Below, piece by piece: positions 3,159 through 41,218 of a stretch of DNA of 64,000 nt; the stretch's first letter is position 1, and each line of letters starts with the position of its first letter. A model generated the notes under the pieces. It had not been told where the DNA came from. It searched no databases and saw only the letters and a program-made list of their open reading frames with translations. The translations under genes were made by a program, and so were the position numbers. The stretch is from Calditrichales bacterium MX18-03 (lineage in GTDB: Bacteria > Bacillota > Clostridia > Lutisporales > Lutisporaceae), in NCBI GenBank assembly GCA_021083345.1, contig JAJGRE010000002.1, positions 248,001 to 312,000 of the forward strand, given 5' to 3'.

Positions 3159-3914
3159 CTATAATATCAGCTTCCCTGCGGCTAAAGCTGTCATGATGAT
3201 AATCATCCAGCGGAAGAGCTTTTCGTTAAGCTTCTTGATAACAATGATCCCCAACCATGCACCAAACGCAATAATCGGTATCATAGCTGCAACCGCCATC
3301 AGCGTATTCAGAGGGATATTGTTCCAAAAAAAGATCTGCAGCGGCATTTTTATTAGATTGATAATTAAGAAGAACCAGGCATAAGTTCCCATAAAGCTAT
3401 TTTTCTTGTAGCCCTTTGCAAGCAGATAAACACTCAGGATAGGCCCGGCAGCATTTCCGATCATGGACGTAAAACCGCTGGCTATGCCGGTCAGTGCGTA
3501 AAACCAGACTTTCTCAGGTACCTTGAACTGCTCCCCTCTCCTTTCGGTATAGATAAGTATGCCCAGGCACACCAGTACCGATAGGGCGATCAATACCTTA
3601 AATTGCTTGTCGTCCACAAGATTCCCCACAAAAATGCCCAGAGCCAAACCGGCCGCTGCCCAGAATATGAGCTTTTTTATATTGCCCCATTCCGCGTGCC
3701 GGTTATAGTACTTTACAGCAAAAACATCACCGACGACAAGCATCGGCAGTATGATACCTGTAGAAGCCTTGCCCCCGAAAACAGCAGCAACTATTGGAAC
3801 GGCAAGAGTTGTCATGCCGCTTATCCCTGTTTTTGAGAAGCCTACCATAAAAGCTACAGTGACCAGCCATAACCATTGCTCCGGTGTAAAGCCCATTGAT
3901 TGCAGCAACTCCAT
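3159..3914 (-). CDS. TauE/SafE family sulfite/anion exporter-like permease
   Basis: The protein has 251 residues with about eight hydrophobic segments and the two-half architecture of the TauE/SafE family, including GFSKTGISGM near residue 25 and GFTSMIGNAAGPILS near residue 150. These permeases move sulfite, sulfoacetate or related organic anions across the inner membrane; the substrate cannot be read here. AAAGGAG precedes the ATG. The neighbouring 211-residue protein starts upstream on the same strand and may share its transcript. Confidence 0.8.
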   Translation of the reverse strand: MELLQSMGFTPEQWLWLVTVAFMVGFSKTGISGMTTLAVPIVAAVFGGKASTGIILPMLVVGDVFAVKYYNRHAEWGNIKKLIFWAAAGLALGIFVGNLVDDKQFKVLIALSVLVCLGILIYTERRGEQFKVPEKVWFYALTGIASGFTSMIGNAAGPILSVYLLAKGYKKNSFMGTYAWFFLIINLIKMPLQIFFWNNIPLNTLMAVAAMIPIIAFGAWLGIIVIKKLNEKLFRWMIIIMTALAAGKLIL

Positions 3915-22543: not shown

Positions 22544-23302
22544 TCATATGCCTATTTCCCGCATTTTCACCGTTACTTCTTTAACCCTGCTATCAATATC
22601 CGTCCCGTCAAACTTTGGCAGCCGCATTTCGCTCTCGATCTTTCCGTCGCGCATAAACAGGATACGCTCCGTCCGCGCCGCAATCTTTGCATCGTGCGTC
22701 ACAAGCATAACCGCAGTGCCGTCCCCGTTGATCTCGGAAAACAAGTCCATAATCTCCTGCGCGGATTTTGAGTTGAGTGCGCCCGTAGGCTCGTCGCCAA
22801 AGACGATCTTGGGACTGTTCATAAGCGCGCGGCATATTCCTGCACGTTGAAGCTGTCCTCCCGAAACCTGTGTTATGTCGCGCTTTTCGAGTTCTGCAAT
22901 GCCTGCCCTTTTCATAAGCACTGCTGCCTTCTCCGATATTTTTACGGCGTTTTTCCTGTTGCCGCGCATTGATGGAAGAATGATGTTGTCGTGGATATTC
23001 AGATTTTTCAGCATCGTCGGCTGCTGAAAAACAAATCCCATTTTTGTTCTGCGTATATCTGAAAGCTCATTCTCAGCCACCGCCGATAAATCCCTGCCGT
23101 CAAAAACGACCTTCCCGCCGTCAACATCGTCCATTCCGCTCAGCGCAAACATTAGCGTCGATTTTCCCGAGCCCGAAGGTCCCATAACCGCAACGAACTC
23201 ACCCTCGTTGATTTCAACAGAAACACCGTCCAGAACATGACGCTTTTCATCGCCCTCACCGAATGATTTCACAATGTTTTCACCGATAATAATCTTATTC
23301 AT
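22544..23302 (-). CDS. ABC transporter ATP-binding protein (MacB/LolD type)
   Basis: The 252-residue ATPase has Walker A (GPSGSGKST near residue 41), Q-loop (FVFQQPTML), signature (VSGGQLQRAGI), Walker B (KIVFGDEPTGALN) and H-loop (LVTHD). It belongs to the MacB/LolD/FtsE group that drives FtsX-like permeases, often exporting peptides or drugs or releasing lipoproteins. It follows its permease with a 3-bp gap and AAGGAG ribosome binding site. The operon order TetR-MFS-permease-ATPase suggests drug- or peptide-inducible control. Confidence 0.92.
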   Translation of the reverse strand: MNKIIIGENIVKSFGEGDEKRHVLDGVSVEINEGEFVAVMGPSGSGKSTLMFALSGMDDVDGGKVVFDGRDLSAVAENELSDIRRTKMGFVFQQPTMLKNLNIHDNIILPSMRGNRKNAVKISEKAAVLMKRAGIAELEKRDITQVSGGQLQRAGICRALMNSPKIVFGDEPTGALNSKSAQEIMDLFSEINGDGTAVMLVTHDAKIAARTERILFMRDGKIESEMRLPKFDGTDIDSRVKEVTVKMREIGI

Positions 23303-23305
23303 ATG

Positions 23306-25624
23306 CTACTCCTTTATATTTTCCGATATTTTTATTTGTCCCGTGCCCGATGTGCCGATCATTGTTGCAGCAAGCACCGCGCTTATCATCATCATCGGAC
23401 AAAGCAGATACGCTGTAAGCGGATTGATCACAAACTCAAACGACGAAGCTCCGAATGAGGAGATGACCGCCCCCGCAAGTACCTGGCCCAGCGTGTTTGC
23501 CAGAAGCGTACCGAGAACAATTCCCATAATCAGGACGAATACCGAGCGCGTCACATACTGCAACCTGATATCAGAGTTTGTAAAGCCGAACGCTTTCATT
23601 ACGGCAATGGAATACCTGTCCTTTGCGACAAGCATTTTCATAAACAAGAGTGTAACCAGTCCCGTTATAATCAACGCAACGGCCACTCCTGCATAGGAAG
23701 CTTTTTTGATGGCACTTATCGTCGGTCCGAATGTCTGTAAAACAAATTCATCCACGCCCGTAACTTTTGCAAAGGTAAATCTATTACCATACTCCAAAAC
23801 CTTGCCGTCGGTAAGAGCTTTATCAGAAAACGCCGCTGAGATTACGCACCTCATAATGTCCGCTGAATTGTCGGTGAAAACAGCCTTTGCGGTTTTGCCG
23901 CCGTTGGTAATGTCGGAATAGATTCCGCATACCATGAGATTTTTCTCCTTCCCCTCCATCACCAGCGTCATGACATCGCCGACCTTTTTGCCCAGCTCAT
24001 TGGCGTTTATTGCAGAAAGCGCAACTTCGTCTTCTGCGGCGGGTGCTCTGCCCTGGGAATATGCTACAGGGAATATCGAATGGTCGCCCAGCTCAATTTT
24101 TATGCTTTCCTCCGAGCCGCCCTCTGTCTTTGTTTTGAATACTTTTGTTGTAAGTACGGCATACTTTGAAATGACACTATCAACCTTCATCGCCTTAGCA
24201 ATTTCAGCGGCTTTTTCAGAAATATTGTCTGTCTGCTGAATGTCAATACGCATATCGCAGCTTCCAATCCCCATATAGGAGATGAAGCTTTTTGACGAAA
24301 TCGTGTTATATAGATTCTGCGGAACAATAATGATGAACGCCGAAAGCACGAGCACGGCAAGCATAGTGGCGTAAAGACCTTTTCTGGCACGAACATCTTT
24401 GACGCCGAGAAAAATATTCGTATCCAACAGCCTGTTTCTGCTAAGGCAAAAACGCTTTGCGCCTATGTGTTTTTCCTGTGAAGTGCCAAAGCGTATTGCT
24501 TCCGCGGCGGATATTTTCCGGAAGCGTTTCAGCACCACGCTTACATAGGCAATAATTGCAAGGAATACGAGCAGAACGCCGATTATCCCTAAAGCCGCGG
24601 CAAAAGAAGAACTTTCGCTTTCACCCATATAAAGCCTTATATTTTCAAGAAGTGCACCTCTGAACACTAATGATAATGCAAAGCCGAGTATACAGCCTGC
24701 TGCTGCGATCGCCGCGTATTTCGCAAGGTAAACCTTCTTTATGTCGGAAACACGCAGCCCTATTGCTTTCATAACACCTATTTCGCGATAGTCGTCTTCG
24801 ATTTTCGCAAGGAGCGTAAAGCGTATGCACATGAATGCGATTGAAACGACGAGTGCACTTACAAGAAGTATAACCGCAATCATCAGCCCGTCAGAAATTG
24901 CGTTAAGCGTTTTGAAGAGCGCGTATGTGATCGTCGGTCCGTTTGCTTCAAGTCCTGCCGAGGTGTAAGCGGTTTCAAATGCGCTGAGTGCCGACAAATC
25001 TCTTAACCTGAATTCAATCAGATACTCCGTACTTCCGAGGTCTTTTATTTCCGCGTAATCATTTTCACTGACAAGAAATCGCTTTGAGGAGGAGAGCGTG
25101 GAGTTCATCTGCGAATCCCGGAGAAATCCCGCAACGGTAAATTCCTTGCCGGATATGACTGCCTTGTCACCGACCCTTGCAGTGTTGTCCTTCATATAAC
25201 ATATGGGAACATAAAGCTCTCCGTCGGTTACGTTTATGACGTTTCCGTCAAGATCTAGAAGATAATCGAATTTTTTGCTCTGTATACTGAAACCGTTATC
25301 CTGAACATTATCTGCAAGAGATCTTCCGTCAAATACTATCTGCGCGCCGTCAACATTGAGAAATTCAAGCACTTGAAATTCATCGACATTGCCATTCTGC
25401 TCCGCAAAGGCCGTAAGCCGCACAGTATCAATTTCACCCGAATGCATTTGCATAAAATGCGGTGTTTTTGCCTGCGTCATAAGCGTGTCTATCGAGCCGG
25501 TCAGATTTACGACGAGTATCGCCGCCAGCGAGACAAGCATAGCCGCCGCAGCGACAAATATCATAGTCGTCAGCGTAATGGCTTTGCTCTTTAAGATGTC
25601 ATTGCGTATTATACCATAATACAT
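23306..25624 (-). CDS. FtsX-like ABC transporter permease
   Basis: The 772-residue membrane protein has an N-terminal transmembrane helix, a large extracytoplasmic domain (about 45-230), three helices (about 240-370), a second extracytoplasmic domain (about 430-640) and three C-terminal helices: the duplicated MacB/FtsX layout. The start at 25624 is preceded by GGAGGTGA and overlaps the MFS stop by 16 bp, so translation is coupled. Its partner ATPase follows immediately. Confidence 0.9.
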   Translation of the reverse strand: MYYGIIRNDILKSKAITLTTMIFVAAAAMLVSLAAILVVNLTGSIDTLMTQAKTPHFMQMHSGEIDTVRLTAFAEQNGNVDEFQVLEFLNVDGAQIVFDGRSLADNVQDNGFSIQSKKFDYLLDLDGNVINVTDGELYVPICYMKDNTARVGDKAVISGKEFTVAGFLRDSQMNSTLSSSKRFLVSENDYAEIKDLGSTEYLIEFRLRDLSALSAFETAYTSAGLEANGPTITYALFKTLNAISDGLMIAVILLVSALVVSIAFMCIRFTLLAKIEDDYREIGVMKAIGLRVSDIKKVYLAKYAAIAAAGCILGFALSLVFRGALLENIRLYMGESESSSFAAALGIIGVLLVFLAIIAYVSVVLKRFRKISAAEAIRFGTSQEKHIGAKRFCLSRNRLLDTNIFLGVKDVRARKGLYATMLAVLVLSAFIIIVPQNLYNTISSKSFISYMGIGSCDMRIDIQQTDNISEKAAEIAKAMKVDSVISKYAVLTTKVFKTKTEGGSEESIKIELGDHSIFPVAYSQGRAPAAEDEVALSAINANELGKKVGDVMTLVMEGKEKNLMVCGIYSDITNGGKTAKAVFTDNSADIMRCVISAAFSDKALTDGKVLEYGNRFTFAKVTGVDEFVLQTFGPTISAIKKASYAGVAVALIITGLVTLLFMKMLVAKDRYSIAVMKAFGFTNSDIRLQYVTRSVFVLIMGIVLGTLLANTLGQVLAGAVISSFGASSFEFVINPLTAYLLCPMMMISAVLAATMIGTSGTGQIKISENIKE

Positions 25625-26916
25625 AAGTCACCTCCGTTTTCAAGCTTTTCAAGCTTTCTAACTGATTTTACATGATACAGAATGACCGAAGTCACACATA
25701 ACAGTACGCCTGCAATAATAATAAGAAATCCCGTTCCTCTGCCGCTGCCAGTGCCGATGATCTTACCCACACTGCCGGCAAGTATGCCACCCTCTAGCAG
25801 AAAAGGATTGAACACATAATCCGCAAGCACGCCGGTCAGCGCATAAGCAGCAACATATCCAAGCTGAGAAATGACACCGATCAGTCCCCATGCTCTTCCC
25901 TGAAGGTCATTTTCTATGTTGGTACGGGTAAGAAAATCCAGACTTGTGTTTGCAAACGGGAGCATTGCGAAAAACAGAAATCCCGAAACGCAGATAAGTA
26001 CAATGTTTTCACGCAGTCCGAACATCGCCATAAATATTCCGGCACAAAACAAAGAAACCGTAAGCATTTTCACATAGTCCTTTTTTATCGGAAGCGTTCC
26101 TATGATCACGCTTGTCACAAGCATTCCCGAAGCTGCGATTGTCTCAACTGTTCCCAATGCGGAGCTGTCGGAGAAAGCAAGTATCATTGGTGTGGAAAGT
26201 GTTTGTATGAAGCCCAGGAAAAATGTTATTACCGATGTCATTATTACAAGTACAAGCACACCCCTCTTTTCAGAAACGGCACCCCAGCCGTCTTTGAACG
26301 CGCGGATAAACGATTTTGCCTGTTCGGATTTCTTTGGAGCAAGACCTCTGCGTACAGCAAGGGTAGAAATAACAGTTACGAAAAATGTTAGGATATCGAT
26401 TACAAGTAAGAGCTTTATATCGGAAATGGCGAGCAGAAATCCCGCAATGACGGGCGAAATCAGGTATTTTGCCGAGCTTGCCACCTGTACAAGACCGCTT
26501 GCTTTTGTGTACTGCTCCTCGGTAAGCAAATCCGTAACCGTGGCTTTGTATGCGGGCTCAAGCAGCGATGAAAACACCGCGCTAATTGTAACACCCATGT
26601 AAATCTGCCATAGCTGTGTTTCTCCGCGAAGCATGCAAATCAGAATAAATGCAATTCCAAGCGCAGAAAGACTGTCGCCCAACACCATTAGTAGCCTGCG
26701 GTCATGACGGTCCGCAAGCACTCCCGCGATGGCACTTAGCAGAATCGACGGCATATACGCAAGTAAAGCTACAAATGCCACCGCCGATGCTTTTCCCGTC
26801 TGCTCAAAAACATAAACCCCAAGCCCGAAGGCTGTAAGCCCGCTGCCTATCGCTGAAACAAGCTCTCCTGACCACAGTAGAAGAAATTTTCCAAAGGATT
26901 TTTCCGATTTATTCAT
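25609..26916 (-). CDS. MFS transporter (DHA3-like drug efflux)
   Basis: The protein (about 435 residues) has twelve predicted transmembrane segments and the MFS motif A-like loop GVLADRHDRRLLM near residue 65, typical of the multidrug/macrolide efflux branch. I place the start at the ATG at 26916, two bases after GGAGGAGG; this overlaps the TetR stop by 8 bp (ATGAATAA). The apparent 40-residue upstream extension lies inside the tetR gene and is spurious. The 3' end overlaps the permease start by 16 bp. Confidence 0.88.
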   Translation of the reverse strand: MNKSEKSFGKFLLLWSGELVSAIGSGLTAFGLGVYVFEQTGKASAVAFVALLAYMPSILLSAIAGVLADRHDRRLLMVLGDSLSALGIAFILICMLRGETQLWQIYMGVTISAVFSSLLEPAYKATVTDLLTEEQYTKASGLVQVASSAKYLISPVIAGFLLAISDIKLLLVIDILTFFVTVISTLAVRRGLAPKKSEQAKSFIRAFKDGWGAVSEKRGVLVLVIMTSVITFFLGFIQTLSTPMILAFSDSSALGTVETIAASGMLVTSVIIGTLPIKKDYVKMLTVSLFCAGIFMAMFGLRENIVLICVSGFLFFAMLPFANTSLDFLTRTNIENDLQGRAWGLIGVISQLGYVAAYALTGVLADYVFNPFLLEGGILAGSVGKIIGTGSGRGTGFLIIIAGVLLCVTSVILYHVKSVRKLEKLENGGDLCIMV

Positions 26917-27556
26917 AGCCTCCTCCATTTCCGCTGCCAAACATCTGTATAATGCACTTAAGACTTCCGCTTTCAGCCCCGAGCAGCCTTTCTGCGTTGA
27001 AAACAAACGCCTGTATGCGTGAAGCGCGCTCCTCATTCGTCATTTTAACCATATCATCATCAAATACGGTATTCGTATACGCCATAACCATTTCCATGCA
27101 TTCATACGGGAATGGCGTGCTGAACAGTCCCTGCTCAATGCCCTCCTGAATTATTCCCGCCAGTATGGGGGTAACGCCGTTGATTATGACCTTTTGTATT
27201 TTCTGATGCATCAGCGCGTTCTGCGGCTTGTGAATGTGCTCCATAATTTCCTTGCCGCTTCCTCCACTTATGTTCAATGCCATAACGACGCGGATAATGC
27301 GCTCGCTTACGGGTATGCTCTTGTCAGCGGCAATTTCTTGAGCCGCGCCTAAGAAACGGACATTATACCGCTCAATCAGCGCATCCATAATATCCTCCTT
27401 CGACTTGAAGTGATAATATAGCGTTCCCCGCGCAATCCCGACCTTTTCGAGAATATCATTCGTACTTGTGCCGTCAAAGCCCTTCAACCCAAATAGCATA
27501 TCCGCCGCGTCAAGTATTTCGTTCCTGCGTTCCTCTGCATCTTTTACAACTCTCAT
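26909..27556 (-). CDS. TetR-family transcriptional regulator
   Basis: The 215-residue protein has an N-terminal TetR helix-turn-helix (ILDAADMLFGLKGFDGTSTN, then GIARGTLYYHFKSKED) and a helical ligand domain. AAAGGAG precedes the ATG. It is the first gene of a four-gene overlapping operon with an MFS exporter and an FtsX-type ABC transporter, so it most likely represses the operon until a toxic ligand is bound. No operator palindrome is obvious, although GACTGCCTGTCGAT lies about 20 bp upstream. Confidence 0.92.
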   Translation of the reverse strand: MRVVKDAEERRNEILDAADMLFGLKGFDGTSTNDILEKVGIARGTLYYHFKSKEDIMDALIERYNVRFLGAAQEIAADKSIPVSERIIRVVMALNISGGSGKEIMEHIHKPQNALMHQKIQKVIINGVTPILAGIIQEGIEQGLFSTPFPYECMEMVMAYTNTVFDDDMVKMTNEERASRIQAFVFNAERLLGAESGSLKCIIQMFGSGNGGGYE

Positions 27557-27650: not shown

Positions 27651-27690
27651 AAATATCCTCTGCTGAATCTATTTTCAACAGAGGATATTT
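27651..27690 (-). terminator. Rho-independent terminator
   Basis: AAATATCCTCTG and CAGAGGATATTT form a 12-bp stem followed on the minus strand by a run of T, just after the stop of the GTPase-NYN gene. Confidence 0.85.
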
Positions 27691-27709: not shown

Positions 27710-30361
27710 CTACTTACCTTTTTCTTCTTGCAAGAGTTCATCCAACTGCTGTTTGATTTCAACAGATAATGCATTCTCTAGATAATTAAAATTCACTGCT
27801 TGTTTTTCCTGATAGGCCTGAATGACTCTTTCATTTGCTCTTTCAATTTCTTCCTTCAGCTCTCTGGCGGATAATAAGGAACAGCCTGCCCCCCTGATAA
27901 TGATCTGCTGCAAGCCGTCTGAGGTTGCAACCACTATATTATATTTTTTCTGATTGTCATGGGCAAATTTTTCGATATACTGGTCCGCCGTTTGTGCCTC
28001 CCTGGTATATACGACATGGAGGTTACCGTAGTCGATAATTTCCTCAAGATGCCCCTGAACACGATAGGCATCAAACACAACGATAATCTGACATTTTCGG
28101 ATCCCCTGATAATTGCTTAGAGAATCAAGCAATTTCATTCTGGCACCGTCCATATTCCCATCAACAAGCCCTTTCAGTTCAGGCCATGCATAGATAATAT
28201 TATAGCCATCCACAAGAAGATATTCTTCTTTGGTTTCTTTTCGTTCGTTAATATAGGCAGTGGGTTTATAATTAATTTCGAGAGCTGTTCTTCGTTTTTG
28301 CCAAACAGACTTTTTCGCTTGATTTGCATAATAGGTTTGATTAAGGATCCTGTCAATTTCCTTTGGATCAATCCTTTTCTCCTCTGAATATGAAGCCTGG
28401 ATTTCAGCTGGTTCTTCCAATAAATCATCCTTTTTTTGAAAGCAGCTTTCAACATTCATGTAGTCCTTTACTTCATCCCAATGAACTAAAAAGCTAGCGC
28501 CATTTGCACAGAATACGGAATCCGCAGGGTTTTCCACGTCCCTTTCAGAATCATATCCCACCATTTCTATGACCTCTTTAGTATTATGACAGGGCTCATA
28601 CCCCTTCAGACTGCAAAAGAGCCTGCCTTGACCTTTGGTATAGGCCATCACATCTTTCTGATAGTTTCTCATGGCAGCAACAGGGGCTGTCCCCCCAAGA
28701 ACTGCAATTTCATCTTCTATGTGAGTCACTTGACATGTCCCATGCATTTTCTCAATGTCCGTCATAGCACGGCCTACCATTTTCTCAGGCAGCTCAAGAT
28801 GAAAGGCATAATATGGTTCTAATAATATTGATTCTGCCTCCTTTAAGCCTTGACGCACTGCACGATAGGTAGCCTCTCTAAAGTCACCGCCTTGAGTATG
28901 TTTATTATGCGCTCGACCTGACACTAAAGTAATTTTCATATCTGTAATCGCTGATCCTGTGAGAACCCCTTTATGAACCTTTTCTTCCAGATGGGATAAA
29001 ATAAGTCTTTGCCAGCTTTTACCCAGCAAATCTTCACGGCATTCTACCCCAAACTGCAGACCGCTTTGCCGCTCCCCCGGTTCCATCAACAGGTGAACCT
29101 CCGCATAATGCCGCAAGGGTTCAAAGTGTCCTACCCCTTCTACGACATTTGCAATAGTCTCTTTATAAACAATCTTGCCTGAATCAAATGATACCTCGAT
29201 ACCAAATCGGCTTTGTATAAGACTTTGCAGAACTTCGGTTTGCACCTGGCCCATAATCTGTACCTGGATTTCCTTAAGCTGCTCATCCCAGACAATATGG
29301 AGCTCCGGATCCTCCTCCTCTAAGAGGCGCAGCTTAGGTATCATCACTCTTGGGTCACAGCCTTCCGGAAGCAAAATTTGATAGGACAATACAGGCTCCA
29401 AGATGGGTGCATTTGAAGCTTCCTCTATCCCCAAACCTTCTCCCGGTTTTGTTTGACTCAGTCCTGTTACTGCGCATACAGAGCCTGCCTCTACCTCATT
29501 CACAGCTTCGAATTTTTGTCCTGAATAGATTCGGATCTGATTAACCTTTTCTTCCCATACGCCATTATTTATAACATCTCTTACCTTAAGCCTTCCGCCG
29601 GTAATCTTCATATAGGTAAGGCGGTTTTCCTGTTCATCCCTGCCAATTTTGAATACTCTAGCGCCAAAACTATCCGGATAGGAAGGTATGCCGGCATACT
29701 TCACAATGCCATGAATAAATGCCTCTACACCTTCCAATTTTAAAGCTGAACCAAAAAAGCACGGAAATACCCTGCGTCCCCTGATAGCTTCCTTAATCTG
29801 TGGGATTTGGATATCTCCTGTTTCCAAATAGGCTTCCAAGAGTGCTTCATCACACATTGCCAATTGGTCGTTGAAGTCCGCTGTCTCACCTTGTCCAAAT
29901 TCAATACACCCATCACTCAACTGTTTCTTTAATTCATTCGTTATTTTTCGCTTATCAGTCCCATTTTGATCCATTTTATTAATGAATAAAAAAATGGGTA
30001 TCTGATATATGGAAAGTAAACGCCATAAGGTTTTAGTATGCCCCTGTATGCCATCTACTCCGCTTATCACTAAAATGGCATAGTCCAGCACCTGGAGTGT
30101 TCTCTCCATTTCTGTAGAGAAATCTACATGGCCCGGGGTATCTAATAAGGTAATCTGTGTATCAGCCGCTTCAAACATGGCCTGCTTCGAAAAAATAGTA
30201 ATCCCTCTTGCTCTTTCGAGCTCGTAGTTATCCAAATAGGCGTCTTTATTGTCCACCCTTCCTAGTTTTCGAATTTTACCGCTCAAATAAAGCAAACTCT
30301 CTGATAATGTTGTCTTACCCGCATCTACATGTGCTAATATTCCAATGACCAATTTTTTCAT
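27710..30361 (-). CDS. Tet(M)/EF-G-like ribosomal GTPase fused to a Rae1/YacP-like NYN domain
   Basis: Residues 1 to about 640 match the Tet(M)/Tet(O)-type ribosomal protection GTPases: G1 AHVDAGKTT (10-18), switch RGITI, G3 DTPGH, G4 NKMD, then EF-G-like domains II-V. Residues about 714-883 form a second domain with the acidic sites of NYN nucleases: LLVDGYNII (D718), VVFDAYR (D764), TADQYIE (D793), ATSDG (D815). They read like Rae1/YacP, a ribosome-associated mRNA endonuclease. Ribosomal protection proteins are about 640 residues, so this is a true fusion. It may act on stalled or drug-bound ribosomes and cut the mRNA; that is inference. Confidence 0.85.
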   Translation of the reverse strand: MKKLVIGILAHVDAGKTTLSESLLYLSGKIRKLGRVDNKDAYLDNYELERARGITIFSKQAMFEAADTQITLLDTPGHVDFSTEMERTLQVLDYAILVISGVDGIQGHTKTLWRLLSIYQIPIFLFINKMDQNGTDKRKITNELKKQLSDGCIEFGQGETADFNDQLAMCDEALLEAYLETGDIQIPQIKEAIRGRRVFPCFFGSALKLEGVEAFIHGIVKYAGIPSYPDSFGARVFKIGRDEQENRLTYMKITGGRLKVRDVINNGVWEEKVNQIRIYSGQKFEAVNEVEAGSVCAVTGLSQTKPGEGLGIEEASNAPILEPVLSYQILLPEGCDPRVMIPKLRLLEEEDPELHIVWDEQLKEIQVQIMGQVQTEVLQSLIQSRFGIEVSFDSGKIVYKETIANVVEGVGHFEPLRHYAEVHLLMEPGERQSGLQFGVECREDLLGKSWQRLILSHLEEKVHKGVLTGSAITDMKITLVSGRAHNKHTQGGDFREATYRAVRQGLKEAESILLEPYYAFHLELPEKMVGRAMTDIEKMHGTCQVTHIEDEIAVLGGTAPVAAMRNYQKDVMAYTKGQGRLFCSLKGYEPCHNTKEVIEMVGYDSERDVENPADSVFCANGASFLVHWDEVKDYMNVESCFQKKDDLLEEPAEIQASYSEEKRIDPKEIDRILNQTYYANQAKKSVWQKRRTALEINYKPTAYINERKETKEEYLLVDGYNIIYAWPELKGLVDGNMDGARMKLLDSLSNYQGIRKCQIIVVFDAYRVQGHLEEIIDYGNLHVVYTREAQTADQYIEKFAHDNQKKYNIVVATSDGLQQIIIRGAGCSLLSARELKEEIERANERVIQAYQEKQAVNFNYLENALSVEIKQQLDELLQEEKGK

Positions 30362-30668: not shown

Positions 30669-32906
30669 TTACAAGTATTTTGCAGTAATAGACTCCTTAC
30701 AATCTCTCAAGTTACCAGGTGTTCCTTCAAAAAGAATCTGTCCGCCTCTGCTTCCGCCCTCAACACCTACATCGATAATCCAGTCGGCATTACGAATGAC
30801 ATCAAGGTTGTGTTCTATGACGATAACGGTGTTGCCCTTGTCAACAAGACGGTCAATAATGGTCAGAATACTTGTAATATCGGACATGTGCAAACCGGTT
30901 GTAGGCTCATCCATGATATAGATATTGCCCTTTTTGCTTAATTCCTTGGCAAGCTTCAAGCGCTGGCATTCTCCACCGGAAAGGGTGTCCAAGGGCTGTC
31001 CCAGCGTCATATAATGCAGACCGACATCGACTATGTACTTCAGCTTATTTTTTATTTCCTTCTGCATGAAGAAGTCGACAGCTTCTGCTATTGTCATTTC
31101 AAGCACTTCAACAATGGATCTGCCATTATACTTGTACGCCAGAACCTCATGCTTAAACCGTTTGCCGCCGCATTCCTCACAGATGGTTTCAACTGAATCC
31201 ATAAAGGAAAGATCTGTTTCTATATAACCCCGCCCTTTACAAGCCTCACATGCTCCCTCTGAGTTATAACTGAACAATCCCGCGCTTACCTTGTTTTCAT
31301 CAGCAAATAGTTTGCGTATTTCATCCATAATTCCAGTATAGGTCGCTGGATTTGAACGTAAATTCGCGCTGACTGCGGACTGGTCGATAATGATGGCATC
31401 TTTGAATTCCTTCGCAAAGACACCGTTAACAAGAGTAGACTTTCCGGAACCCGCCACTCCTGTAACAACAGTGAATATACCTTTAGGTATTCTTAAGCTT
31501 ACGTTTTTCAGATTATGCAGCCTGCTCTTTTTTGTTTCAAAAAAATCATTGCTTATCCTTGGCTTACTTTTAATCGGCAGACTCCTGCCCATGTATTCTC
31601 CTGTAAGTGTATTTGCTTTCAATAGGTCACTGTAGCTGCCTTCAAACATGATTCTCCCGCCGTTTTTACCTGCTTTGGGCCCAACATCAACAATGTAATC
31701 GGCAACCTTTATCACATCAGGATCATGCTCAACCACAATCACCGTGTTGCCTTTATCCCGCAGTTTTATCAGCAGTTCGTTAAGCCTGTGCACATCTCTG
31801 GGGTGTAATCCGATGCTTGGCTCATCAAAAATATACATGACATCTGTCAAACTGCTTGTAAGATGCTTGACCATTTTAACACGTTGTGATTCGCCGCCGG
31901 ATAATGTGGACGTTTCCCTATCTAAGCTGACATAATCAAGTCCTATTTGAATCAAATCATTCAGCCGCTCAGTCAGATTCTTGATAATCGGTTTGACGTT
32001 CTGATCATCAATTTTTCGGATCAATTCCAGAAGCGCATCCACCTGCAGAGCCGAAAAATCCGCAATGGAATATCCCATGATTTTCGACGATAAAATACTT
32101 TCGTTATAGCGCCTGCCGCTGCAAGCATCGCACTGTTTTTCAGTGATGAATGGCGCGATCTTCTTCTGTGATGCCTCCGATTTTTCGCCCTCGGTTTTAA
32201 TGTTCTGTCTGATAAATCTCTCAACAAGACCTTCATAAGTGGAGTTCATACCTTCAACTAAGGCCGATTTGATTTTTTCCGGTTTACAGTATACAAGCTT
32301 ATCATATTCTTCTTTTGAATAATCCTTAATCTTCTTATCACAATCAAAGAAACCTGTTGAGGTATACATTTTCCACTGCCAGGTGCCAGGGGTAAAACCG
32401 GGCAGCAAGATCGCTCCCTCGTTCAGCGATTTTTCCTTATCCAATGCTTTTTCAAGATCCAGTGTGACAATCCTGCCGATCCCCTCACAGGTCTTGCACA
32501 TTCCATTGGGGTCATTAAATGAAAAATAATGGGATGGGCCGATATGCGGCTGCCCGATTCGTGAAAACAGCAGCCTGATCAACGGATTAATATCCGTTAT
32601 TGTGCCAAGTGTTGAGCGTGAGTTGCCGCCTATCCTCTTTTGATCGACAATAATCGCCATAGACAGGTTCTCAATGGCATCCACCTCCGGATGACCATAC
32701 TTGGGTAAGAAACCTTGAACGAACTTGCTAAAGGTTTCATTCAACTGCCGGCCCGCTTCCTGGGCAATGGTTTCAAATACAATCGATGATTTGCCCGACC
32801 CGGACACGCCGGTAAAAATCGTTATCTTCTTTTTGGGAATTTTCAAACTGATATTCTTTAGGTTATTCGCTCGTGCACCTACTATTTCAATATACTCGTG
32901 TTCCAT
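30669..32906 (-). CDS. UvrA-like ABC ATPase (short UvrA paralogue)
   Basis: The 745-residue protein has two ABC cassettes with Walker A GVSGSGKSS (near 33) and GVAGSGKST, signature LSGGE twice, and the CxxC zinc pairs CKTCEGIGR, CDACSGRR, CEACKGRG and CEECGGKR. It is about 200 residues shorter than canonical UvrA (about 940), with a reduced insertion region. That matches the UvrA2/drug-resistance-associated class, often linked to DNA-intercalating drug tolerance rather than general repair. The start at 32906 follows GGGAGG; a longer ATG start at 32948 lacks a site. Confidence 0.85.
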   Translation of the reverse strand: MEHEYIEIVGARANNLKNISLKIPKKKITIFTGVSGSGKSSIVFETIAQEAGRQLNETFSKFVQGFLPKYGHPEVDAIENLSMAIIVDQKRIGGNSRSTLGTITDINPLIRLLFSRIGQPHIGPSHYFSFNDPNGMCKTCEGIGRIVTLDLEKALDKEKSLNEGAILLPGFTPGTWQWKMYTSTGFFDCDKKIKDYSKEEYDKLVYCKPEKIKSALVEGMNSTYEGLVERFIRQNIKTEGEKSEASQKKIAPFITEKQCDACSGRRYNESILSSKIMGYSIADFSALQVDALLELIRKIDDQNVKPIIKNLTERLNDLIQIGLDYVSLDRETSTLSGGESQRVKMVKHLTSSLTDVMYIFDEPSIGLHPRDVHRLNELLIKLRDKGNTVIVVEHDPDVIKVADYIVDVGPKAGKNGGRIMFEGSYSDLLKANTLTGEYMGRSLPIKSKPRISNDFFETKKSRLHNLKNVSLRIPKGIFTVVTGVAGSGKSTLVNGVFAKEFKDAIIIDQSAVSANLRSNPATYTGIMDEIRKLFADENKVSAGLFSYNSEGACEACKGRGYIETDLSFMDSVETICEECGGKRFKHEVLAYKYNGRSIVEVLEMTIAEAVDFFMQKEIKNKLKYIVDVGLHYMTLGQPLDTLSGGECQRLKLAKELSKKGNIYIMDEPTTGLHMSDITSILTIIDRLVDKGNTVIVIEHNLDVIRNADWIIDVGVEGGSRGGQILFEGTPGNLRDCKESITAKYL

Positions 32907-33032
32907 TGTTTTCCTCCCTTTAAGAGAATTTTGCACAGAAAAGATCAAATCACGATATTCTTATTATATCATAGTAAGTTATTTTTACAGGTCCTTGCTA
33001 TCGAAAAATCCAGCACCCTCCTCAACTAAAAA

Positions 33033-38278: not shown

Positions 38279-41218
<2,940 letters not shown>

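Follow-up and report, generated by a model that had tools for sequence, protein, structure and literature searches.

A translational GTPase fused to a Rae1-type nuclease in Clostridia, and the loss of the separate rae1 gene

The window analysed here, a 64,000-nucleotide stretch of contig JAJGRE010000002.1 from Calditrichales bacterium MX18-03, contains a gene in which an EF-G/Tet-type GTPase and a Rae1-type NYN nuclease are encoded as one protein, and the locus thereby raises the question of whose work such a joined protein does. The gene lies at 27710-30361, as stated in the original prediction, which left unmentioned that it is on the minus strand (start ATG at 30361, stop codon ending at 27710). 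The answer favoured by our comparisons, to which we would give a probability of about one half, is that the cell has no other Rae1 than this protein, in which the nuclease forms the C-terminal domain of a dedicated ribosome GTPase active on stalled or A-site-empty ribosomes. The parts of the gene and the evidence for each are as follows (aa, amino acids; ORF, open reading frame; pLDDT, predicted local distance difference test).

27710..30361, minus strand: whole gene of the fused translational GTPase-Rae1, 883 aa (ORF, translation, Pfam)
29696..30352, minus strand: G domain, residues 4-222 (Pfam GTP_EFTU, 1.2e-51)
29186..29665, minus strand: EF-G domains II and III, residues 233-392 (Pfam EF-G_D2 at 233-305, EFG_III at 322-392)
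28835..29179, minus strand: EF-G domain IV, residues 395-509 (Pfam EFG_IV, 5.3e-18)
28877..28918, minus strand: family-specific tip loop of domain IV, residues 482-495, GRAHNKHTQGGDFR (sequence comparison)
28577..28825, minus strand: EF-G domain V, residues 513-595 (Pfam EFG_C)
28442..28603, minus strand: conserved extension, residues 587-640, GY..C591H..GYD..SVFC618..G..V.W..V (conservation, pLDDT about 85-92)
28226..28441, minus strand: mostly disordered linker, residues 641-712 (pLDDT below 50 at 644-664 and 677-709)
28331-28366, minus strand: short conserved predicted helix in the linker, residues 666-677 (E668 in 70/74, I672 in 72/74, T676 in 68/74 proteins)
27734..28219, minus strand: NYN_YacP (Rae1) nuclease domain, residues 715-876 (Pfam 1e-53, phmmer, Foldseek)
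28208-28210, 28070-28072, 27983-27985 and 27917-27919, minus strand: codons of the acidic sites D718, D764, D793 and D815, respectively

The N-terminal part has the intact G-domain motifs (P-loop AHVDAGKTT, switch I RGITI, DTPGH and NKMD) and the domains II to V that define the EF-G/EF2 family, as found by Pfam, by conservation and in the structural model. Conservation was examined in two sets, each of which included the window protein: 25 fused proteins from 25 genomes made up the rest of the first, and 73 fusions of full length from named records the rest of the second. The residues of the GTPase motifs were invariant or nearly so in both. The second set was drawn from the best 80 of 596 loci, 78 of which had a GTPase ORF; besides the 73 fusions these ORFs comprised three without NYN (L156, L169 and L187) and two of 800 aa or shorter, and 62 of the 73 entered structure alignment A3 and 41 entered A4. 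An AlphaFold model of the whole protein (mean pLDDT 82.9, predicted template modelling score 0.60) has a well ordered GTPase, an ordered NYN domain and an extension that is ordered as far as residue 640 or so, and the linker is mostly disordered with one short helix. The best structural alignment of the GTPase model was with ribosome-bound EF-G (Z 38.7), and ribosome-bound TetM (3j9y) aligned over residues 1-630 with Z 32.0; most rows of these alignments (VIA listing) span residues 1-604 and are uninformative on the fold of the extension. Past residue 595 the extension gave no match in Pfam; it is predicted to form two short helices and a hairpin, and its residues C591 and C618 were present in 74/74 proteins, while one divergent protein of the first set (L068) has phenylalanine at the position of C618 and an altered tip loop. 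The linker varies from 65 to 166 residues (median 81 in the 74 proteins). Since the same architecture recurs in many families, a chance or assembly join is excluded as its origin.

How closely does the C-terminal domain resemble Rae1? It has both the NYN fold and the four acidic residues of the Rae1/YacP proteins (PDB 5MQ8, 5MQ9). D718, D764, D793 and D815 were conserved in 26/26 proteins of the first set and 74/74 of the second, and in an alignment read by eye they correspond to D7, D53, D81 and D104 of Bacillus subtilis Rae1. When modelled alone the domain reached a pLDDT of 91.6, and a Foldseek search of the PDB with this model returned three matches at E ≤ 0.001, all of them B. subtilis Rae1, the best being 5mq9_A (E 1.5e-12, template modelling scores 0.71/0.79, root-mean-square deviation 1.6 Å); phmmer gave 1.9e-23 against 5MQ9. 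The acidic sites, as well as Asn721, Glu797, Thr813 and Gln819, were fixed in 39/39 fused and 39/39 separate NYN domains. The original prediction, in which a GTPase of the EF-G/Tet type is joined to a Rae1-type NYN domain with all four acidic sites, was thus confirmed by Pfam, by the model and by conservation, and neither of the two observations named there as grounds for giving it up, a missing NYN fold or unconserved acidic residues, was made. There are also differences. Separate Rae1 is a free protein of about 170 aa whereas the fused NYN is a domain of an 883-aa GTPase, and at three positions the two kinds of domain diverge: position 766 is Y in 39/39 fused domains and H in 31/39 separate ones, position 724 is N in 36/39 separate domains and mostly F in fused ones, and position 829 is R in 39/39 separate domains and L in 17/39 fused ones.

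The next question is whether genomes with the fusion also keep a separate rae1. The only NYN_YacP match in the window's own genome was the fusion itself. NYN matches were found in 40 of 61 relatives, either as a frame of about 170-220 aa or as part of a longer frame, and each match over the cut-off was alone in its genome. When 393 genomes of the class were sampled, 249 had an NYN match and 134 had the fusion (126 as full-length ORFs); the fusion is carried by many gut and soil Clostridia. An intact separate rae1 was present in 1/134 fusion genomes (G302) and in 115/259 of the others (Fisher's exact test, p = 9e-25). A second sample, taken outside the class, had a separate rae1 in 0/18 fusion genomes. 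In the whole phylum sample 196/348 genomes had an NYN match, which leaves 170/322 among those without the fusion (p = 5e-6 for 0/18 against 170/322). The states of the genomes were assigned by hand from the combined match tables, some of them from one NYN match and one long ORF; three genomes with a second NYN match below the cut-off (G143, G194 and G226) and one with a relic just over it (G388) were counted as being without an intact separate rae1. In the family to which the window belongs, a separate rae1 is retained by five genomes while others have the fusion; two of the five were examined (G002 and G021), and in both the separate gene sits in the rlmB-sigH operon. G021 also has a 40-aa fragment of the extension with the fused proteins as best match (54% over about 54 residues), which is perhaps a decayed fusion and is too short to be counted as one.

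Separate rae1 genes have a characteristic position, directly between rlmB and sigH, which was seen in 12/15 loci; of the three exceptions one has an extra gene between (L087), one is beside sigH only (L089) and one is beside neither (L085). The names of the SigH and RlmB probe proteins were confirmed by NCBIfam, and a neighbouring gene that we take to be mrnC gave no match in that search. The rlmB-rae1-sigH block was found at the fusion gene in 0/25 fusion loci, and the fusion genes had no neighbours in common in the loci compared; this difference from Rae1 concerns gene position and not activity. The ancestral slots were then searched for remnants. The rlmB region was taken in 31 fusion genomes, in 28 of which sigH was also found (G031, G158 and G220 had no sigH match), and 27 intervals could be tested, the gap of 29 nt in G389 being too short. 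Rae1 matches above all 200 shuffled sequences were obtained in 8/27 slots, one of them an intact gene (G302) and seven decayed. The relic in the window's own genome scored 39.7 bits over Rae1 residues 135-173 (best of 200 shuffles 24.3), and decayed rae1 was also present in G004, G045, G121, G362, G388 and, weakly, G317 (26.2 against 23.1). One family (f53) contains a whole series, with an intact gene beside the fusion (G302), relics (G121, G317 and G362) and no trace (G210 and G256). Given that genomes with the fusion almost never retain the native rae1 and that relics persist in some of them, the simplest account is that the fusion made the native gene redundant and that the fused NYN does Rae1's work. 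This suggests that the joined protein took over the job of the separate nuclease, and the ribosome-associated, mRNA-cutting role first proposed for it gains support from the loss of native rae1.

The extension alone (alignment A1) was used as query in the 393 class genomes. In total 164 genomes were positive: 126 had ORFs of 822-1045 aa and, without exception, an NYN match as well, 28 had ORFs of 618-729 aa without NYN (one of them split), and ten were short or cut. Eight of these ten, all below 800 aa and most or all cut or frameshifted, were counted as fusions, the remaining two being a short ORF without NYN (G222) and the G021 fragment. The NYN-less GTPases, which are known from the 28 class genomes, from Paenibacillus and from Ligilactobacillus salivarius, resemble the fused form in tip loop and extension and have no nuclease domain, and some carry the public name 'translation factor GTPase family protein'. 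The GTPase tree, which omits L127 (two ORF pieces) and a second match in L123, separated the fused proteins from a sister clade of 19 NYN-less proteins (support 95 for the NYN-less side). The NYN-less protein of L. salivarius fell among the fused ones with weak support, and the Tet proteins were far outside; the fused GTPases as one clade were not rejected (approximately unbiased test, p-AU 0.435). The NYN tree was built without domains shorter than 100 aa and without copies that shared their first 100 residues exactly. The first version gave the fused NYNs as one group with two separate NYNs inside (G227 and G243); fission need not be invoked as the source of these two, as holding the 39 fused NYNs together gave a higher likelihood (p-AU 0.696). 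Both trees are compatible with one fusion event. G227 and G243 each have an NYN-less GTPase at another place, and the 173-aa separate NYN of G227 (L085, 9790-10308, minus strand), which is near the fused NYNs in the tree, lies outside the rlmB-sigH block.

A separate rae1 was present in 22/28 class genomes with an NYN-less GTPase and in 92/229 without any GTPase form (p = 1.8e-4), and outside the class in 4/6 genomes with an NYN-less GTPase. One family (f40) supplied 14 of the 28, and outside it the numbers were 8/14 and 84/221 (p = 0.17). Being non-significant outside f40, this co-occurrence was dropped as evidence for a partnership between the two proteins and is kept as no more than a lead.

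How could a GTPase and a nuclease work on one ribosome? EF-G-type GTPases enter the A site by domain IV. The GTPase part would recognise ribosomes whose A site is empty or blocked, enter that site with its domain IV and leave it upon GTP hydrolysis; the NYN, tethered by the flexible linker, could then reach the A site and cut the messenger RNA (mRNA), and the truncated complex would afterwards be rescued by transfer-messenger RNA (tmRNA). In outline, this would be a bacterial analogue of factor-assisted no-go decay within a single protein. The order of events, GTPase first and tethered nuclease second, is a guess, and sequential action is favoured because domain IV and NYN cannot occupy the A site together; on general grounds the linker should be long enough for it. 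That the NYN domain acts as Rae1 is probable, that the GTPase brings it to stalled ribosomes or gates it there has roughly even odds, and a coupling of the two activities is what we infer. Available parts of the literature describe Rae1 as an A-site endonuclease that is thought to enter stalled ribosomes (PMC6613710, PMC10100781) and state that tmRNA depends on such a cut if the A site is filled with mRNA (PMC12320835). The window's own genome has tmRNA (main match 173 bits); two further matches to the tmRNA model, at 67 and 63 bits, were also over the gathering score (L277 and L278; contig C9, 531861-532230 and 542763-543073). A broader proposal, namely that the protein is a self-contained bacterial no-go decay factor, a single chain which senses stalled or A-site-empty ribosomes through a dedicated GTPase with a tip loop of its own, cuts the A-site mRNA through its tethered Rae1 domain and, over much of the Clostridia, has taken the place of free Rae1, is tentative and somewhat doubtful, and our estimate of it was lowered slightly because the co-occurrence described above was non-significant outside one family. 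If it were true, the NYN-less sister GTPases could be partners of free Rae1 in other Firmicutes. In bacteria the recognition of stalled ribosomes and the cutting of the mRNA on them are understood only in part, and what is said of Rae1's route to the A site is a model. A naturally occurring fusion in the place of Rae1 singles out a GTPase as candidate partner and opens the question to tests with domain mutants.

Several observations weigh against the protein being the cell's only Rae1, coupled to its GTPase. No trace of rae1 was seen in 19/27 tested slots, and both Fisher tests ignore shared ancestry. Furthermore, rae1 was missing from 137/229 class genomes without any GTPase form, and its loss is therefore common for other reasons too. 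Judged from the residues at positions 724, 766 and 829, the cutting specificity of the fused NYN may differ from that of separate Rae1. One A site cannot hold domain IV and NYN, so that coupling needs the sequence of events outlined above. Finally, 6/28 class genomes and 2/6 genomes outside the class with an NYN-less GTPase have no NYN at all, and the GTPase can thus exist without Rae1.

The last of these points bears also on the alternative that survives best, in which the two activities are uncoupled, the GTPase having its own ribosome job and Rae1 riding along for proximity to the ribosome. NYN-less versions in 28/164 extension-positive class genomes and a linker that is long, variable and mostly disordered are compatible with this, whereas the full-length fusion in 126 class genomes and 18 outside, nearly always with the separate rae1 absent, argues against it, and the conserved helix with E668, I672 and T676 suggests that the linker is more than a string. 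We consider uncoupled activities unlikely, with some weight left.

Could the protein instead protect against a drug? The GTPase would then dislodge a drug from the A site, tetracycline or some other, and a second activity would come from the nuclease. Tet(M)/Tet(O)-type proteins and TetB(P) have the EF-G-like five-domain layout in common with the fusion, at about 30-34% identity over residues 1-586, TetO and TetM are the best-scoring solved relatives by sequence, and the structural match to TetM was given above. In RefSeq-based records an A. rectalis fusion is assigned to the Tet(M/W/O/S) family, as are many NYN-less proteins of L. salivarius, and a TetR-type regulator and a Mef-like gene of the major facilitator superfamily (MFS) adjoin the fusion. 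The Tet proteins differ, however, in their tip loops and in having no such extension and no NYN. The domain IV tip is AHNKHTQGGDFR in the window protein as compared with SP[VA]STPADFR in Tet(M), Tet(S), Tet(W), Tet(36) and TetB(P), a loop that is absent from the window protein. Fused and NYN-less forms alike keep mostly xHxKHTxGGDFR, with ASNVHTVGGDFR in the L. salivarius NYN-less protein and DHNEHTHGGDFR in one Paenibacillus protein as variants, and in the second set of fused proteins H485, H488, T489 and D493-R495 were invariant in 74/74 and K487 was present in 73/74. The score of the window protein in NCBIfam tet_protect was 441.8 bits at a cut-off of 775, and the six family GTPases scored (the window protein, four NYN-less proteins and the A. 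rectalis fusion) were all far below every tetracycline cut-off shown; the fusion thus also differs from the Tet proteins in score. Because the tip loops differ and the scores are far below the curated cut-offs, we conclude from these comparisons that the window protein does not belong to the tetracycline-protection family as defined, a statement about membership and not about drug effect. The tip loop and the C-terminal extension mark a subfamily distinct from the tetracycline-protection proteins. Drug protection is accordingly quite unlikely, and removal of a drug in the manner of Tet(M), as first suggested for this gene, does not stand as written, given the score, the lack of Tet tip loops and the sharing of the tip by the NYN-less sisters. 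The finding also bears on resistome surveys: public records give Tet(M/W/O/S) names to an A. rectalis fusion and to many NYN-less proteins of L. salivarius, whereas those tested lack the Tet tip loops and score far below the curated cut-offs. The domain IV loops of Tet proteins contact and dislodge tetracycline, according to the available part of Atkinson 2015 (PMC4342817).

TetB(P), at 652 aa similar in length to the NYN-less proteins, was considered as a hidden member of the subfamily and was rejected on its identity of about 31% to an NYN-less protein, its Tet-type tip and its lack of the extension. Three members of the subfamily seen here lie on large plasmids. On pMP118 of L. salivarius UCC118 (L128) the NYN-less GTPase is beside a gene for ribosomal protein S14 and a small 'putative metal homeostasis' gene (3529-3798, 3402-3509), and these neighbours, together with the conserved Cys and His of the extension, might point to a dependence on metal. 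The possibility of a phage gene was considered as well, because close GTPase matches occur in two 'Bacteriophage sp.' records; both are UNVERIFIED unannotated fecal scaffolds and nothing was drawn from them.

As another alternative the GTPase might act after the NYN cut as a splitting or recycling factor, clearing the stalled complex without tmRNA. The model does align with mitochondrial EF-G2 in a complex with ribosome recycling factor (7nsh, Z 37.5), a kind of match that any EF-G-like protein would give, and we regard this role as very unlikely. Least probable of all is cutting of ribosomal or transfer RNA, for processing or for marking faulty ribosomes: a maturation role was proposed for the domain before Rae1 was described (PMC4342817, citing Anantharaman and Aravind 2006, in the part available), but Rae1, for which the fusion substitutes, is described in the accessible portions of the sources as cleaving mRNA in a translation-dependent manner, and the fused NYN has its acidic sites and many fixed residues in common with separate Rae1.

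The original prediction knew of no functional study, and this agrees with our literature search; it did not mention the 2015 paper in which the architecture was already described, with some speculation about it. The available part of Atkinson 2015 (PMC4342817), the first report that we found, describes NYN-fused 'Tet proteins' of the same architecture in ten Clostridiales species and suggests that they might serve in resistance through their RNase activity; in that part no link to Rae1, no displacement and no separate subfamily were found. Neither a functional study of the fusion nor a link to Rae1 was found by full-text search, with Condon 2018, Leroy 2017 and Deves 2023 outside its coverage. 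As far as found, the parts are known, their join is known and apparently unstudied, and the comparative evidence on its role is new.

The surroundings of the fusion in the window include the following features.

27651..27690, minus strand: terminator-like hairpin with T-run, directly 3' of the stop codon (pattern scan only)
22544-27556, minus strand: TetR-type regulator, then Mef-like MFS transporter (below cut-off), FtsX-type permease and ABC (ATP-binding cassette) ATPase, directly downstream of the fusion

No match at the gathering score, and hence no known regulatory RNA, was obtained when positions 17000-42000 were scanned with Rfam. Pattern scans gave 14 promoter-like sites as compared with 8.3 (standard deviation 2.9) in shuffled sequences and four terminator-like sites as compared with 2.5 (standard deviation 1.9), both of which are hints only. 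Upstream of the fusion a 759-aa short UvrA-like ABC protein is encoded at 30669-32948 on the minus strand; it scored over the cut-off of TIGR00630 and below that of PRK00349, and its match to the UvrA DNA-binding domain was below the cut-off. At 38364-41078 on the minus strand, a 904-aa protein matched the NCBIfam model of the rifamycin-inactivating phosphotransferase Rph with 1492 bits (cut-off 999), and two phosphoenolpyruvate synthase subfamily models scored higher, at 1620 and 1523.

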